A stretch of DNA of 64,000 nucleotides from Prevotella koreensis. GTDB taxonomy: Bacteria > Bacteroidota > Bacteroidia > Bacteroidales > Bacteroidaceae. The notes beneath the pieces are model-generated. The model saw only the letters and a program-made list of their open reading frames with translations, did not search any database and was not told the DNA's origin. The DNA lies in NCBI RefSeq assembly GCF_003977605.1, contig NZ_RYYU01000001.1, positions 1,050,039 to 1,114,038 on the forward strand. The letters run 5' to 3'. Position numbers and translations under genes: made by a program. This document shows positions 1,852-52,459 of the stretch, one piece after another (position 1 is the stretch's first letter; each line of letters starts with the position of its first letter).

Positions 1852-2487
1852 ATGACCATAATAGGAATTGCCGGGGGCACCGGCTCGGGAAAAACCACAG
1901 TGGTGAAGAAACTGGCTGCTGCACTGCCACCGCACTATGTGGCCGTGGTGCCGCTCGATTCTTACTACAACGACACCACGGGAATGACCGATGAGGAGCG
2001 ACGCGCCATAAACTTCGACCACCCCGACGCTTTCGATTGGAAACTACTGATAAAGCAAATAAACGAACTGCGCAGCGGTAACGCCATAGAACAGCCCACC
2101 TACTCGTACATCATCAGCAACCGACTGGAAGAGACGGTGCATGTAGAGCCGAAACCTGTAATAATAATAGAGGGAATCATGACGCTCATCAACCGTAAAC
2201 TTCGGGATATGATGGACTTGAAAATTTATGTGGACACCGATGACGACGAACGCCTGATACGCAATATCCAACGCGATGTGATGGAGCGCGGGCGCACCGT
2301 GGAGATGGTGATAGACCGCTATCTGAAAGTGCTCAAGCCAATGCACGAGCAGTTCATAGAGCCTACAAAGAAGTATGCCGACATAATAATACCGCAGGGA
2401 GGGGAAAACCTGAAAGGCATAGGAATACTATGCAAATACATCGAGGGCATAGTTCCGCAAGGCCATGAGCCACAGATAAAAGACTGA
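1852..2487 (+). CDS. udk: Uridine kinase
   Basis: 211 aa, usual length for the family. Walker A GGTGSGKTT at residues 8-16, the LDSYYND substrate segment near 36, FDHPDAFDW near 55 and the RDVMERGR lid region near 140 identify uridine/cytidine kinase, which phosphorylates uridine and cytidine with ATP or GTP in pyrimidine salvage (cytosolic). It sits 65 bp after the glycosylase-fold gene. Fourteen bases after its stop begins a 22-bp repeat array (2501-2588), which takes the place of an ordinary terminator. Confidence 0.93.
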   Translation: MTIIGIAGGTGSGKTTVVKKLAAALPPHYVAVVPLDSYYNDTTGMTDEERRAINFDHPDAFDWKLLIKQINELRSGNAIEQPTYSYIISNRLEETVHVEPKPVIIIEGIMTLINRKLRDMMDLKIYVDTDDDERLIRNIQRDVMERGRTVEMVIDRYLKVLKPMHEQFIEPTKKYADIIIPQGGENLKGIGILCKYIEGIVPQGHEPQIKD

Positions 2488-2500
2488 CAGACATCCTATC

Positions 2501-2588
2501 ATAAACCAATTTCGCCCATTTTGCAAATCAATTTGGGCGAAATTGCAATGCAATTTGGGCGATTTTGTTTTCCAATTTCGCCCAAATT
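2501..2588. repeat. 22-bp repeat array A (4 units)
   Basis: Four contiguous 22-bp units at 2501-2522, 2523-2544, 2545-2566 and 2567-2588. Each carries a 16-bp core of the type CAATTTCGCCCAAATT or its reverse complement plus a variable 6-bp leader. Core orientation is F, R, R, F (F reads TTCGCCC, R reads GGGCGA). Same family as arrays at 20715, 42729 and 52335. The array begins 14 bp after the udk stop and ends 82 bp before an IS982 relic. Function unknown. Adjacent opposite cores could form RNA hairpins. Confidence 0.9.
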
Positions 2589-2669
2589 ACTTTTTTATCC
2601 TATATCATAGCCCACTTAACTGATTTTGCTCGATTGTTGAGCAGATGTGTTGACGTTTCATTGAAAGCA

Positions 2670-3732
2670 TTATGCCAGTTCGGGATAAGTTTAGCATGAA
2701 AAGAGTTCCAACTGCCTTGATTTTTCCACATATACAGGCAGTGCCTACGGCTTATTCTCAAAAAACAATATGCCGTAAGGGCAGAACACAAGTTCATGAT
2801 AAAGTTATGTATGGAGCGATGTCGTGAATATACAAGGTTTGCTTTGTTCTTGAGCAGTTCGTTAATGTACTCGAATATGTACCTTTTTCTCAGCATGATC
2901 TTGTCCCACATAGGCATAAGTTTATTCTTCATTTTAGCCTTGAGCCCAAGAACGAATTGGATACCTTGATTGAACAGACTCTCGAATAGTTCCTGATTGA
3001 CATATCCCCTGTCGGCAAAGATCTTCCCATACAAAACCTTTGCAAACATCGTCCATATCCTGCTATCCCAACATTTGCTCCTGTAAGACAGAATGTTATC
3101 ACTTCGCCGGAATCATTGCAGAGCAGATGCAGTTTGAATCCATGACACCATCCCATAGCGCCCTTACCGTTCTTGGCAAGACAGGAAAAGACCTTGTTGA
3201 AATACCGTCTTACATTGTGACATACCGGAATCATCGTACTGTCAACGAACGTTATACCTGTACATTTGCCGAAGGCATAGAGTTTCATGAGCAACATCAT
3301 CTTAAAGAACACACGGGGCATGAGTTCTACAAAACGATTGTTGGATACGGCTGTGAGAAAATCACGCTTCAGATAACCTTTGATATAGTGAATATAATAA
3401 TCATTGAAAGTCCGGTGTGTGCTGAAATGATAGCATATCATAATGGTCATTATTTCACTTTCTGACATTTGACCTTTGCGGTTATGATAACATCTGCCGG
3501 TAGCATCAAACGATGGTAAAAAAGATTTTTAGAAAGTTCGGCATTAAAATTCTTGTTAAATTCGCCGATAATACAGAAAATTTGTAGAGTTTCCTTGAAC
3601 GAAGTGAAAAACTTTGTCCTCAGTAATCATAGTTTAGTTGTTTTGTAAGTCATTTATTCTCAACCATAAAGTTACAAAAGACTAACGAGATTACCAACTT
3701 TTACAAGGATTTTTTTAGCCAAACTGGCGTAA
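2670..3732 (-). mobile_element. IS982-family insertion sequence, decayed
   Basis: About 1.06 kb, the size expected for IS982 elements. The outer ends are matching inverted sequences: TTATGCCAGTT at 2670-2680 and AACTGGCGTAA at 3722-3732. The interior encodes an IS982-type DDE transposase on the minus strand broken by several frameshifts, so the copy is dead. A second, internally deleted copy lies at 6440-6720. No target duplication is obvious. The right end lies about 20 bp from the promoter of the next gene. Confidence 0.8.
2691..3630 (-). pseudogene. IS982-family transposase, frameshifted
   Basis: Reading from the ATG at 3630, MITEDKVFHFV is followed by a frame change near 3595, a second near 3525 (before the FDATGRCYHNRKG segment), a third near 3070-3080 (after LTGANV) and a fourth near 2765 (after SALTAYCF). 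Joined, the frames give a complete IS982 transposase: FVDSTMIPVCHN with the first catalytic Asp, KIFADRGY with the second, and RKRYIFEYIN with the catalytic Glu. Compared with the copy at 6440-6720, the last frameshift is the loss of one G in an A-rich run. The protein cannot be made intact. Confidence 0.85.
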
Positions 3733-19888: not shown

Positions 19889-20650
19889 ATGCTACACATA
19901 TTATACTGCATATATCAGATTTTCGTTTTCATACCTCTGTTGATTATCTCCACAATCGTCACTGCTCTCATTGTTAGCATTGGAACGATGATTGGCAATG
20001 CCGAATTTTGGGGCTACTATCCGGGCAAGTGGTGGGGAAGGTTTGTCCTATGGACACTGTTGATTCCTGTAAAAGTGGAGGGACGCGAAAACCTTAAAAA
20101 AGGTCAGAGTTATGTCTTCGTATCTAATCATCAAGGCTCGTTCGACATATTCCTCATCTTTGGTCATCTGTGCCGTAAGTTCAAATGGATGATGAAGCAA
20201 CAGTTGAAGAAAATACCATTCGTGGGCTATGCCTGCGAAAAGAGCAACCAGATTTTCGTTGACAAACGCGGACCGAGCAAGATAAAGCAGACCTACGACA
20301 AGGCTCGCGACATATTGCGCCACGGCACAAGCGTGGTGGTATTTCCGGAGGGAGCACGCACGTTCACCGGTCACATGGGCAAATTCCGACGCGGCGCATT
20401 CATGCTTGCCGACGAGTTGGGACTCCCCGTGGTTCCGATTACCATAAACGGTTCGTTCGACATCATGCCACGCACCAAGTCCCGGTCCTTCGTTCACTGG
20501 CATCGCATGTCACTAACAATCCACAAACCGATAGAACCGATAGGTCGCGGAGCCGACAATACCAACAACTCAATGGAAAAGAGTTACTCCGCAATAATGT
20601 CCGCACTCGTGCCGGAATATCAAGGATACGTAGAAAATCCCGACCAATAA
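19889..20650 (+). CDS. plsC: 1-acyl-glycerol-3-phosphate acyltransferase (PlsC family)
   Basis: 253 aa. An N-terminal membrane helix (about 3-30) is followed by the acyltransferase motifs VSNHQGSFD (catalytic HxxxxD near 80-86), FVDKRGPSK and VVFPEGART (near 148-156), and PVVPITINGSFDIMP. Transfers an acyl chain to lysophosphatidic acid to give phosphatidic acid. Co-directional with and close to the glycosyltransferase. A terminator and 22-bp array B follow. Confidence 0.88.
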   Translation: MLHILYCIYQIFVFIPLLIISTIVTALIVSIGTMIGNAEFWGYYPGKWWGRFVLWTLLIPVKVEGRENLKKGQSYVFVSNHQGSFDIFLIFGHLCRKFKWMMKQQLKKIPFVGYACEKSNQIFVDKRGPSKIKQTYDKARDILRHGTSVVVFPEGARTFTGHMGKFRRGAFMLADELGLPVVPITINGSFDIMPRTKSRSFVHWHRMSLTIHKPIEPIGRGADNTNNSMEKSYSAIMSALVPEYQGYVENPDQ

Positions 20651-20714: not shown

Positions 20715-20802
20715 TCAGACCAATATGGGCGAAATTACTAAGCAAATTGGCCGATTTTGCAAACCAATTTCGCCCAAATTGATTTTCAATTTCGCCCAAA
20801 TT
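20715..20802. repeat. 22-bp repeat array B (4 units)
   Basis: Units 20715-20736, 20737-20758, 20759-20780 and 20781-20802, in the same 22-bp register as array A. Core orientation R, R (degenerate, TTGGCCGA), F, F. It fills the space between the plsC terminator and the end of the convergent AraC-type gene (stop at 20811), so it lies between two 3' ends. Confidence 0.9.
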
Positions 20803-20810
20803 GCGCCCCA

Positions 20811-22019
20811 TCAGACGTGCTCTGTATCATTCGCCGACACCGTTTTCTTGCACTGTTTCTTCCAAGCAAGCGGAGTAATGCCAACCATTCTTTTGAACAC
20901 TCTGTAAAAAGAACTTTCGCTTGAAAAACCGGATTGCTCCCAAATTTCCGACAACGTAAGTGTATCACCGAAATCTTTAATGAGAATTTGTGCATGACTT
21001 AAGCGGTACATGTTGATGAAATCGGAAAAGGAAAGATTCAACTCGTTGTTGATGTAATTTGAAATATACGAACGGTTGACACCAAGATGGGAAACGAAGT
21101 CAGACAGCGACAAGTCATGTTGTTTGAAGATTTCCTGATTTTCCATCAGTTCAAAGATTTGGACTTTTAACAATTCCTTTGTGTCCTCTGCCAATTTCAC
21201 CTTATTATTCTGCTTCCTCTTCCTTTCTATCTCATCCGCTTCACGGAGTTCACGATAGAAGTCGGCAGCGGTAAATCTCTGCTTGTAACCGACAAATCCC
21301 ACGGAGAAAAGCAATATACTGAACAGAACGGAAGGAATGCAAATCATCCACCATTCCTTTATAAAAAACTCACGGCCGAGGAAATTGGCCGTCACTGACA
21401 CACAGGCATATACTAACAACGTTATCAGCAACACCCTTACAGGCCACAATGTCTTATTCTCCGTGTCGGCATAGAAATTACGGATACTATCGTCAAAGCG
21501 TTTCAGTTTCTTATAACCGAAATAACACACCGGAATGATTTGCACCACATAAAGCAATTTCATCACATACACCCTGTATATCTGTGCATTGACCACCCAT
21601 GACAAATCATGGCCGTGCGACTCGTGTGTATAAAACTCATGCACGACAAAACAGCAACGCGTTTCTTCATCCATTAGAAGATAGAGCACCATTGCCACCA
21701 AAGCCACTATCAGCGATGGCAGCAAAACCCAAAAACGACGCAACGTACACGGCTTTTCATCCGTAAGATTTGAAATGTAAAGATAGTAAAGAGGATAGCC
21801 GGACAAAGTACAAAATGAATAGACAGCCTCAACGTGCGCAAACAAAGAGTATTTATGGTTGAAATAAATGGCATGGGCAATGTATAGGAGTACGCACAGA
21901 AAGAAAAACAATACGAGTAATCTTTGTGCAGAATCGGCTTTTCTGTATCTTGCAGCAAAAGCAACAAACCAACCCAAACTTACCGACAATGGCAATACTG
22001 AGAAAAAGATATTAATCAT
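20811..22019 (-). CDS. Membrane-anchored AraC-family transcriptional regulator
   Basis: 402 aa. About seven hydrophobic helices fill residues 1-245 (PLSVSLGWFVAF, LLVLFFFLCVLLYIAHAI and later VLLITLLVYACVSVTANFLG). A charged linker (EIERKRKQNNK) follows, then an AraC/XylS double helix-turn-helix at about 300-395 (LSLSDFVSHLGVNRSYISNY and IWEQSGFSSESSFYRVFKR). This 7TM-AraC architecture is frequent in Bacteroidetes and is thought to sense a membrane or periplasmic signal. The target is unknown; the divergent outer-membrane gene at 22414 with direct repeats in its upstream region is a candidate. Confidence 0.88.
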   Translation of the reverse strand: MINIFFSVLPLSVSLGWFVAFAARYRKADSAQRLLVLFFFLCVLLYIAHAIYFNHKYSLFAHVEAVYSFCTLSGYPLYYLYISNLTDEKPCTLRRFWVLLPSLIVALVAMVLYLLMDEETRCCFVVHEFYTHESHGHDLSWVVNAQIYRVYVMKLLYVVQIIPVCYFGYKKLKRFDDSIRNFYADTENKTLWPVRVLLITLLVYACVSVTANFLGREFFIKEWWMICIPSVLFSILLFSVGFVGYKQRFTAADFYRELREADEIERKRKQNNKVKLAEDTKELLKVQIFELMENQEIFKQHDLSLSDFVSHLGVNRSYISNYINNELNLSFSDFINMYRLSHAQILIKDFGDTLTLSEIWEQSGFSSESSFYRVFKRMVGITPLAWKKQCKKTVSANDTEHV

Positions 22020-36714: not shown

Positions 36715-38624
36715 AAAATAGCGTTCTTATTATCCTTTTTGTAGCGAGAGAGAAGATTCTTAAAGTCCAAATCATCACGAAGGCCGTCCCAATCAGTATC
36801 CTTTTCCACAAAGTCTACAGAGATTTTACCCCCTTCGAGAGAACGTTCCAAATACTTTAGTGCTTCTCCTTTCTTATTTCTTATAGCATACAAACAAGCC
36901 AAATTATAGGCATCACCTCCATATTTAATCGCTTGCAGATTTTTTTCAACGGTTTCATCGTATAGTTTCTCTGCTGCAACACCGGATTTTGTCTGTGCAA
37001 GATTATATAAAGCAACTCCCCAATTGTAATATACCTCATGATCGTCTGGCTTTATCCGGATTGCCTGACTATACTTCTCAAAGGATTCATTGTATAGTGC
37101 TTCAGCTTCGATACCAGACTTGCTCTGTGCAAGATCGCTTAAAGCAACTCCCCAATTGCAATATACCTCATGATAGTCTGGCTTTATCCGGATTGCCTGA
37201 CTATACTTCTCAAAGGATTCATTGTATAGTGCTTCAGCTTCGATACCAGACTTGCTCTGTGCAAGATCACTTAAAGCATTTCCCCAATTGTTATATGCAT
37301 TGGGATAGTCTGGCTTTATCCGGATTGCCTGACTATACTTCTCAAAGGATTCATTGTATAGTGCTTCAGCTTCGATACCAGACTTGCTCTGTGCAAGATC
37401 ACTTAAAGCATTTCCCCAATTGTTATATGCATTTGGGTAGTCTGGCTTTATCCGGATTGCCTGACGATACTTCTCAAAGGATTCATTGTATAGTGCTTCA
37501 GCTTCGATACCAGACTTGCTCTGTGCAAGATCGCTTAAAGCAACTCCCCAATTGTAATATGCGGCAGAAGATTTAGGGGTTAATACTGTTGCATTCTCAT
37601 ACTCTTTTGAGGCTTCTAAATATTCTCCAGCCAAATGAAACTTTAGTCCTATATTAAAGTGATTTTGGGCTTCTCTCTCTAAAAGAAGTGCTTGTCTTTT
37701 GTATTCATCCTGTACTTGAGCAAGTTGCTCTGAAAGAGAATCTATCTCTTTTTCAGACTCTTTAAGCTGATCTAAAAGTGTCTTCTTTTCCAAACTTTTC
37801 TTTGCTTCCGCAGCTTGCTTAATTGCTACAAGTTGTTCTATAACTTTTGGAATTTCTTCATGTGAAACAACTTGAATAGAAGTTAGGAAATTAAGACTAT
37901 CATCTAATGAGTCAAGGGTAATGATATAGTGTTCTTGGCTGTAGATACCTTGCGTTCTCTTGATTTCCTTAAAAATACCATTGATTTGAGGGTCGCCCAA
38001 GCCCGTACCAATAAAAAGAAAGGTTTTATTGAAAATGAGATTTCGCAAAGCATACAAGGTATGTTCAGCCTCTCGTCCTTCGCTTTTATACATATTGTCA
38101 TAGTCCGATGGGAACAAGACCATAGAGTCTATATGTTCTATACAACCATGTAACTTGAACAAAAAGACGGAATCTTTCTTTAGTCTATTCAGTTCGTAAT
38201 CTTTAGTTTTATACGCTTTTATTTCTTGGAGTTTAGGAACAGCCTTTTCAAAAGCCCTATCATAGTTGGTGGTAATAATCTTTGTAGATAAGTTGAACAG
38301 TTTTTGATGGAAGGAAAGGTCGTTCTTCTCTTGCAATGTAAAATAGTGTTTGACAAACTCACCAACTTCTCTTCTGTTTATTCCTTTTGTTTCCAATTTC
38401 TGAAGAGTGTCTATCGGCGTTAACCTATCGTAACACTGCTTCTCTTCATCTGTAATATAGCCTTTCTTTTTCAGATGCGATGTTATAGATTTAACCATTT
38501 TATCCCATCCTTCAAGAGGCTCATTTATCGTGTTTGTTAAGTTCCAAGACAGACCGGCACCAATGAATAGCACCAGATCATCTGCTTCGATTGCTTCTTT
38601 TAATCCCGGAGGTATCGTTATCAT
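36711..38624 (-). CDS. SIR2-TPR protein, probable anti-phage NAD-consuming effector
   Basis: 637 aa, cytosolic. Residues 1-260 form a SIR2-like NADase domain: LFIGAGLS (20-26), ITTNYDRAF with catalytic-type Asn120, FKLHG with His159 and FIGTGLGDP with Asp211. A coiled coil (about 262-322) leads to TPR repeats from 323. Four copies of a 44-aa unit (355-530) are almost identical, followed by a diverged fifth and a short C-terminal tail. In known systems (Thoeris ThsA, DSR, SIR2-APAZ) such domains deplete NAD+ on phage infection; that role is inferred here. The stop codon lies in the end of an IS5 relic, so the C-terminus may be altered. Bracketed by two IS5 copies. Confidence 0.85.
   Translation of the reverse strand: MITIPPGLKEAIEADDLVLFIGAGLSWNLTNTINEPLEGWDKMVKSITSHLKKKGYITDEEKQCYDRLTPIDTLQKLETKGINRREVGEFVKHYFTLQEKNDLSFHQKLFNLSTKIITTNYDRAFEKAVPKLQEIKAYKTKDYELNRLKKDSVFLFKLHGCIEHIDSMVLFPSDYDNMYKSEGREAEHTLYALRNLIFNKTFLFIGTGLGDPQINGIFKEIKRTQGIYSQEHYIITLDSLDDSLNFLTSIQVVSHEEIPKVIEQLVAIKQAAEAKKSLEKKTLLDQLKESEKEIDSLSEQLAQVQDEYKRQALLLEREAQNHFNIGLKFHLAGEYLEASKEYENATVLTPKSSAAYYNWGVALSDLAQSKSGIEAEALYNESFEKYRQAIRIKPDYPNAYNNWGNALSDLAQSKSGIEAEALYNESFEKYSQAIRIKPDYPNAYNNWGNALSDLAQSKSGIEAEALYNESFEKYSQAIRIKPDYHEVYCNWGVALSDLAQSKSGIEAEALYNESFEKYSQAIRIKPDDHEVYYNWGVALYNLAQTKSGVAAEKLYDETVEKNLQAIKYGGDAYNLACLYAIRNKKGEALKYLERSLEGGKISVDFVEKDTDWDGLRDDLDFKNLLSRYKKDNKNAIL
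36903..37562 (-). repeat. 132-bp in-frame tandem repeats (TPR units)
   Basis: Five consecutive 132-bp units; the four at 37035-37562 are nearly identical at the DNA level (marker TTCAGCTTCGATACC at 37101, 37233, 37365 and 37497), the fifth (36903-37034) is diverged. Each encodes one 44-aa TPR-like unit of the SIR2 protein. Such identity implies recent expansion or gene conversion. Confidence 0.95.
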
Positions 38625-42728: not shown

Positions 42729-42816
42729 GCGTTGCAAAATGGGCGAAATTGGTCTGCAAAATGGGCGAAATTGATGAGCAATTTCGGCGAATTTGGTTTG
42801 CAAAAGGACATGAAAT
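42729..42816. repeat. 22-bp repeat array C
   Basis: Units 42729-42750 and 42751-42772 carry the R core (GCAAAATGGGCGAAATT), 42773-42794 is degenerate (CAATTTCGGCGAATTT) and 42795-42816 only keeps the register (GGTTTGCAAAAGG). Same 22-bp phase as arrays A, B and D. It lies 268 bp after the ATPase stop and before the receptor-like gene. The rest of the 42513-42994 gap holds no recognisable gene. Confidence 0.85.
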
Positions 42817-42994
42817 GAGAAATAAAAAATGTGAAAACGGTGGAAAGAATTAAACAAACGGCGTGATTTTGCATCGAAAATTAAAAAGCAATGGGTATAG
42901 GACTGCATATTAAACCCCAACCGATCATTAGAACGCATGTCTTAGATTAGAGTTTAATGAGTCACTATCATCCTCCGAAAAGATTTTGAACATT

Positions 42995-52334: not shown

Positions 52335-52422
52335 ACAGAGCAAAACAGGCGAGATTGCAGAGCAAAATGGGCGAAATTGAAAAACAAAATGGGCGAATTT
52401 GGTAAGTAAATTCGCCCATTTT
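52335..52422. repeat. 22-bp repeat array D (4 units)
   Basis: Units 52335-52356 (CAAAACAGGCGAGATT, slightly diverged), 52357-52378, 52379-52400 (both R cores TGGGCGAA) and 52401-52422 (F core TTCGCCCA). Same 22-bp phase as the other arrays. Lies between two convergent 3' ends (DUF5606 gene and the lipoprotein gene at 52460). Followed by TTTTTTAT. Confidence 0.9.
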
Positions 52423-52459
52423 GTTTTTTATTTTTATATCAATTCGTCTCTATTATGCT

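Follow-up and report, generated by a model that had tools for sequence, protein, structure and literature searches.

The chromosome of this Prevotella carries intergenic arrays in which a 17-bp dyad unit recurs on an exact 22-bp register, usually four times, with A/T content helically phased in the flanks and a distance within which a second array is rarely found; the same architecture recurs in related species with other sequences. We describe four such arrays in the window, the 64-kb stretch of DNA analysed here, together with those of its 2.69-Mb genome (G000) and of its relatives. That the rhythm is kept in related species but the sequences differ suggests that the arrays shape the chromosome as docking sites and are not RNA hairpins. 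In our judgement, little is known of how Bacteroidota chromosomes are folded. Should the arrays serve as anchors or topoisomerase sites, about 130 candidates are already mapped in one genome, and geometry is conserved while sequence varies, which is unusual; should they instead be a mobile repeat, they represent a class akin to REPs that lacks the known tags and has an apparent exclusion distance.

Array anatomy in the window and the genome

All four arrays of the window (Table 1) follow the 22-bp register, and no other tandem period from 15 to 39 bp was present in the window at the same stringency. Array A is flanked by a uridine kinase gene (+) and the remnant of a DDE transposase gene (-), the 3' ends of both facing the array; array B lies between an acyltransferase gene (+, ending at 20650) and a gene for an AraC-type regulator (-, ending at 20811), and array C between genes for an AAA-ATPase (+) and an outer-membrane protein (+). 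The core orientations that the initial annotation had read in arrays A and D stand as tabulated. Its reading of array B as R, R, F, F is right for units 1, 3 and 4; the second unit has an ambiguous GGCCG core whose central base reads F. In array D the last two units make up a perfect inverted repeat with a T-tract after it, and this array could therefore double as a terminator. Rfam matches in the window were limited to two tRNAs, with no RNA family at the arrays.

Table 1. Positions of the arrays in the window, with the units and flanks of array A
Feature	Positions	Strand	Description
Array A	2507..2589	.	four 17-bp dyad units (F, R, R, F), 22-bp register
Array A units	starts 2507, 2529, 2551, 2573		CAATTTCGCCCATTTTG / CAATTTGGGCGAAATTG / CAATTTGGGCGATTTTG / CAATTTCGCCCAAATTA (F, R, R, F)
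Left flank of array A	2417..2506	.	member of the flank class with phased A/T (~90 bp), a class-level property
Right flank of array A	2590..2679	.	member of the flank class with phased A/T (~90 bp), a class-level property
Array B	20721..20803	.	four units: R, ambiguous, F, F
Array C	42735..42795	.	three clear units and a decayed fourth in register (42801-42817)
Array D	52341..52423	.	four units (R, R, R, F)

The transposase (PF13612) adjoining array A is split over two frames at 2600-3468 and is probably a decayed insertion sequence. In an empty-site comparison, the region downstream differs in the nearest relatives and holds no such array at that place. Prevotella sp. UBA4330 has, 3' of udk (L003:4640-4760), a near-perfect inverted repeat of AAGGAGTTA-type units, which differs from array A yet occupies its place. 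Elsewhere in the window, a 132-bp tandem repeat (36992-37562, 4.3 copies) lies within a minus-strand reading frame of 637 aa.

Unit anatomy was studied in about 100 array loci of the genome, sampled with 2-kb flanks. The unit is an odd dyad of 17 bp, YAANNNNGSCNNNNTTR, plus a 5-bp spacer, so that 'orientation' amounts mostly to the central G or C and to the asymmetry of the half-sites. At position 8, 195 units have C and 194 have G. The outer CAATTT/AAATTG bases had been taken for a fixed palindrome, but half-sites are drawn from a small and varied vocabulary (CAATTTCG, the commonest, CAAAATGG, CAATTTGG, CAAATTGG, CAAAACAG and others), and a typical unit joins the conserved half CAATTTCG to one variable half. 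Genome-wide, the spacing between neighbouring units is exactly 22 bp at 286 of 286 junctions (RR 97, FF 90, RF 70, FR 29). These include all 99 changes of orientation, which bears out the earlier observation that flips do not disturb spacing. Exactly four units make up 82 of the 105 sampled arrays, and three units 19 of them. The 10-mer AATTTCGCCC has 193 genomic copies against 0 for its reversed control, more than chance would give; it occurs only at background level in 59 sampled congeneric genomes. Even the closest pairs of arrays differ at 8 of 83 positions, slightly fewer than under a unit-shuffled null. Copied arrays were clear in a single case, a segmental duplication in which three arrays (G000:C1:2166277, 2171001, 2180171) share their flanks; other copies have no flanking sequence in common.

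Placement, phased flanks and recurrence in other species

Two further searches gave a near-complete catalogue of at least 130 arrays in G000, placed roughly every 10-20 kb along the chromosome; one orientation class was covered up to 2.36 Mb, and a few more arrays may lie beyond. Among the arrays listed, density is even round the chromosome, the gap mode is 8-14 kb and short gaps are scarce: 2 below 5 kb (27.7 expected), 5 below 7 kb (37.2 expected, with no simulation so low) and 8 below 8 kb (41.5 expected). Two congeners repeat the exclusion distance, with smallest gaps of 6.8 kb (G028, P 0.007) and 6.9 kb (G108, P 0.0001). Nearly all arrays are intergenic (98 of 100), the neighbouring genes being convergent in 33, divergent in 25 and tandem in 38. 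Convergent pairs are thus enriched relative to array-free gaps (12 of 74), and the median distance from the array is 71 bp to a 3' end and 217 bp to a 5' end; since arrays also occupy divergent regions, they are not tied to gene ends.

In flanks that are otherwise unrelated, A/T content follows an 11-bp period that keeps the register of the array, over about 90 bp on each side and in three species (G000, G028 and G108). Within 71 bp, the A/T power at 11 bp is 0.033-0.044 in G000, 0.038-0.040 in G028 and 0.032-0.047 in G108, against 0.005, 0.007 and 0.011, respectively, for randomly shifted flanks. In all three species significance holds for each 44-bp block as far as 93 bp, and blocks beyond are weaker. 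Coherence with the array's phase over 5-93 bp is 0.024-0.037, compared with 0.003-0.008 for the best-phased 1% of non-array windows of the same genome; past 93 bp the difference is small (0.016 against 0.011). Outer positions in register are rich in A/T at the same places as the unit; they lack its G7/C9 core, however, and so are not plain decayed units. Curvature predicted with a wedge model is raised in G000, strongly in G028 and only weakly in G108. In the small, mixed set of 34 flanks from arrays found without a consensus, phasing was not significant. Selection on a two-turn helical phase, which the initial annotation had proposed, is supported by a register that is exact across flips and kept in other species, and by the phased flanks.

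A two-unit pattern matched 23 of 299 congeneric genomes, and its control none. The 23 carriers have the architecture in common while their sequences differ: the arms are TATGG in G108, NATAG in G028 and G285, and several mixed sets in G252, G204 and G225. The unit of G108 (YAATATGGSCCATATTR) is perfectly palindromic about a single G/C, that of G028 and G285 is YAANATAGSCTATNTTR, and only YAA..GSC..TTR is constant across carrier units. Two genomes, G285 and G310, each hold two array families with different arms, which are never mixed in a single array. A looser pattern, applied to 394 genomes across the phylum, returned this genome and two single matches only. Non-coding tandem repeat periods were also sought by self-comparison, which needs no consensus. 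In 80 loci flanking udk, a lag of 22 was the commonest period (14-17 arrays) and 44 the second; 22 was again the commonest in five other Prevotella species (7 arrays in 0.4 Mb), and 0.3 Mb of other Bacteroidota gave one lag-22 array. An odd-centre test found 13 of 24 consensus-free Prevotella arrays significantly dyad-symmetric, their sequences being unrelated. Array positions are not conserved, G000, G028 and G108 having few array-adjacent genes in common, so no given site is essential. A viral origin was rejected, with one match among 2.9 million viral contigs; that contig (L304, 64.6 kb) carries a three-unit array of CAAATTCGGCGGTTTTG type at 1391-1451.

Orientation and the candidate explanations

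The 22 orientation patterns found among 100 arrays show that orientation is not fixed by descent, and they do not bear out descent from one ancestral array without compensation, the alternative that the initial annotation had set against its proposal. Neither is orientation random: in four-unit arrays the conserved half faces inward in the end units (unit 1 is R in 68%, unit 4 F in 73%), and neighbours are co-oriented above expectation (RR 87 against 70.4, FF 71 against 54.4). Compensatory change between F and R units, raised in the same annotation, finds partial backing. Exactly complementary neighbours are in modest excess (R-F 11 against 3.8 expected, F-R 4 against 1.1), so that a subset forms near-perfect inverted repeats, but column-wise covariation in 79 four-unit arrays did not rise above the permutation null. 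A link between orientation and replication strand was discarded, as orientation has no tie to GC skew in three species. In G108, 20 of 24 pairs of neighbouring arrays share one direction along their contig (P 0.0015), a tendency absent from G000.

Pairing of F and R units into RNA hairpins had been offered as the selected property. Arrays would then be transcribed and act as bidirectional terminators or protectors of mRNA 3' ends, with F-R pairs as stems, which we consider quite improbable. Mixed-orientation arrays do fold well (median z -6.1), but arrays are no more stable than those with units permuted between loci (mean folding energy -30.17 kcal/mol against -29.77 +/- 0.67, P 0.27), and arrays of uniform orientation (17 of 81, and the rule in G108) have no strong fold or stem (median z -1.8). 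The excess complementarity of R-F neighbours and the frequency of convergent gene pairs speak for hairpins, yet a quarter of the arrays lie between divergent genes, and the helical phase of the flanks is a property of DNA. Intrinsic terminators combine a G+C-rich hairpin with a T-tract at gene 3' ends; array D has the hairpin and the tract, but just 3 array ends out of 162 carry a T-tract. Some termination may come as a by-product, array D being the example, but it is not the general role of the arrays. It is very improbable that the arrays are neutral minisatellites, short tandem repeats made by slippage and drifting without function. Many genomes do have direct tandem repeats that are frequent and peculiar to the species, but here neighbours of the same orientation are no more alike than chance, which argues against recent tandem duplication, and drift would not lead one to expect a fixed four-unit size, dyad symmetry, a register kept across flips, an exclusion distance or phased flanks.

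The main rival to docking arrays, possible in our view though rather unlikely, is a selfish or domesticated palindrome of the REP/BIME kind, spread between genes by a transposase; species-specific sequence could then reflect co-evolution with the enzyme, and the exclusion distance target immunity. The unit is indeed palindromic, extragenic and in high copy, it occurs in mixed orientations, and the arrays are species-specific at non-orthologous positions; BIMEs, moreover, are regularly spaced REPs of alternating orientation (PMC2817692). Yet the GTAG and CGTC tags by which REPs are defined (PMC3733652) were each found, within arrays +/- 8 bp, in 2 of 100 arrays, below control windows (131 and 165 of 400). 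Target duplication did not exceed a mismatched-flank control, copies outside the one segmental duplication have no common flanking sequence, and mobility alone leaves the phased flanks unexplained. G000 does have one Y1/RAYT-like transposase gene (C1:94459), but it is not flanked by array repeats: it lies amid its own GCCCGTAAGGGC / AATGGGAACGCCCC repeats (L183, G000:C1:92959-96300), unrelated to the 22-mers, and G024, whose one-contig genome does have lag-22 arrays, lacks the family. RAYT was dismissed as the array mobiliser on these grounds.

The explanation we favour, at a little less than an even chance, is that the arrays are binding sites of a putative dimeric, cooperative DNA-bending or DNA-wrapping protein with a chromosome-organising role. 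A homodimer would occupy each 17-bp dyad, and adjacent dimers, separated by two helical turns, would share one face of the helix and could therefore bind side by side whatever the direction of each unit. Bound protein would bend or wrap the DNA, which would account for A/T tracts that keep the phase of the array through about 90 bp of flank on either side. We infer the dimeric protein, its cooperative binding and the wrapping from four features taken together: the unit is a dyad, its direction does not matter, the lattice is exactly two turns and the flanks are phased. As to the chromosomal role, also inferred, arrays that are intergenic, evenly spread and rarely less than about 7 kb apart would most likely serve chromosome organisation or supercoil management, more than the control of single genes, perhaps as domain anchors or as sites for topoisomerase or nucleoid proteins.

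Against docking arrays, a conserved nucleoid protein would not need a complete change of unit sequence between species; a protein that reads the units would need to evolve quickly or to recognise shape. A wider proposal, which we hold as doubtful, is that Prevotella as a genus has architectural anchors in the form of dyad arrays, helically phased and evenly spaced, with conserved geometry (22-bp lattice, phased flanks, spacing of roughly 10-20 kb) and sequence turnover through a fast-evolving reader. PRDM9 sites in mammals offer an analogy, their sequence likewise turning over completely between species. Docking and mobility can also be combined, a once-mobile repeat having been put to architectural use.

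Relation to known systems

The open-access literature that we searched gave no account of such arrays. Plasmid iterons are likewise tandem sites about two helical turns apart, but the arrays are dispersed over the chromosome, palindromic, in both orientations and without a replication gene.

REPs and BIMEs, for example the gyrase-bound BIME-2, are extragenic, high-copy clusters of palindromes in both orientations, species-specific, with a proposed role in chromosome organisation (PMC2817692, PMC6379681). The arrays resemble them in each of these features of sequence and placement but lack the tags and a flanking RAYT, and are distinguished by a 17-bp dyad on a rigid 22-bp lattice, four units, phased flanks and an exclusion distance. 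The BrickBuilt MITEs of Porphyromonas gingivalis are also intergenic elements of Bacteroidales with short tandem repeats, of 23 nt (PMC4596501); they number about 19 copies and have IS5-type terminal inverted repeats and leader and tail segments, none of which was seen in the arrays, where flanks are unique and direct duplications are not above control.

The DNA gyrase motif is long and degenerate, its G+C content phased by DNA wrapping over 130 bp with a 10.75-bp period (PMC6379681). The arrays similarly show composition phased near the helical repeat, but over about 83 + 2 x 90 bp, with an 11-bp period and a strict, species-specific dyad centre; strong gyrase sites phase G+C about a 36-bp centre, and in the arrays a phased array fills the centre between phased flanks. 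Helically phased A/T tracts, as clusters or curved DNA, have been linked with packing of bacterial nucleoids (PMC3940949); A/T tracts are in helical phase at the arrays too, but there the phase is locked to sequence-specific dyads at evenly spaced intergenic sites.
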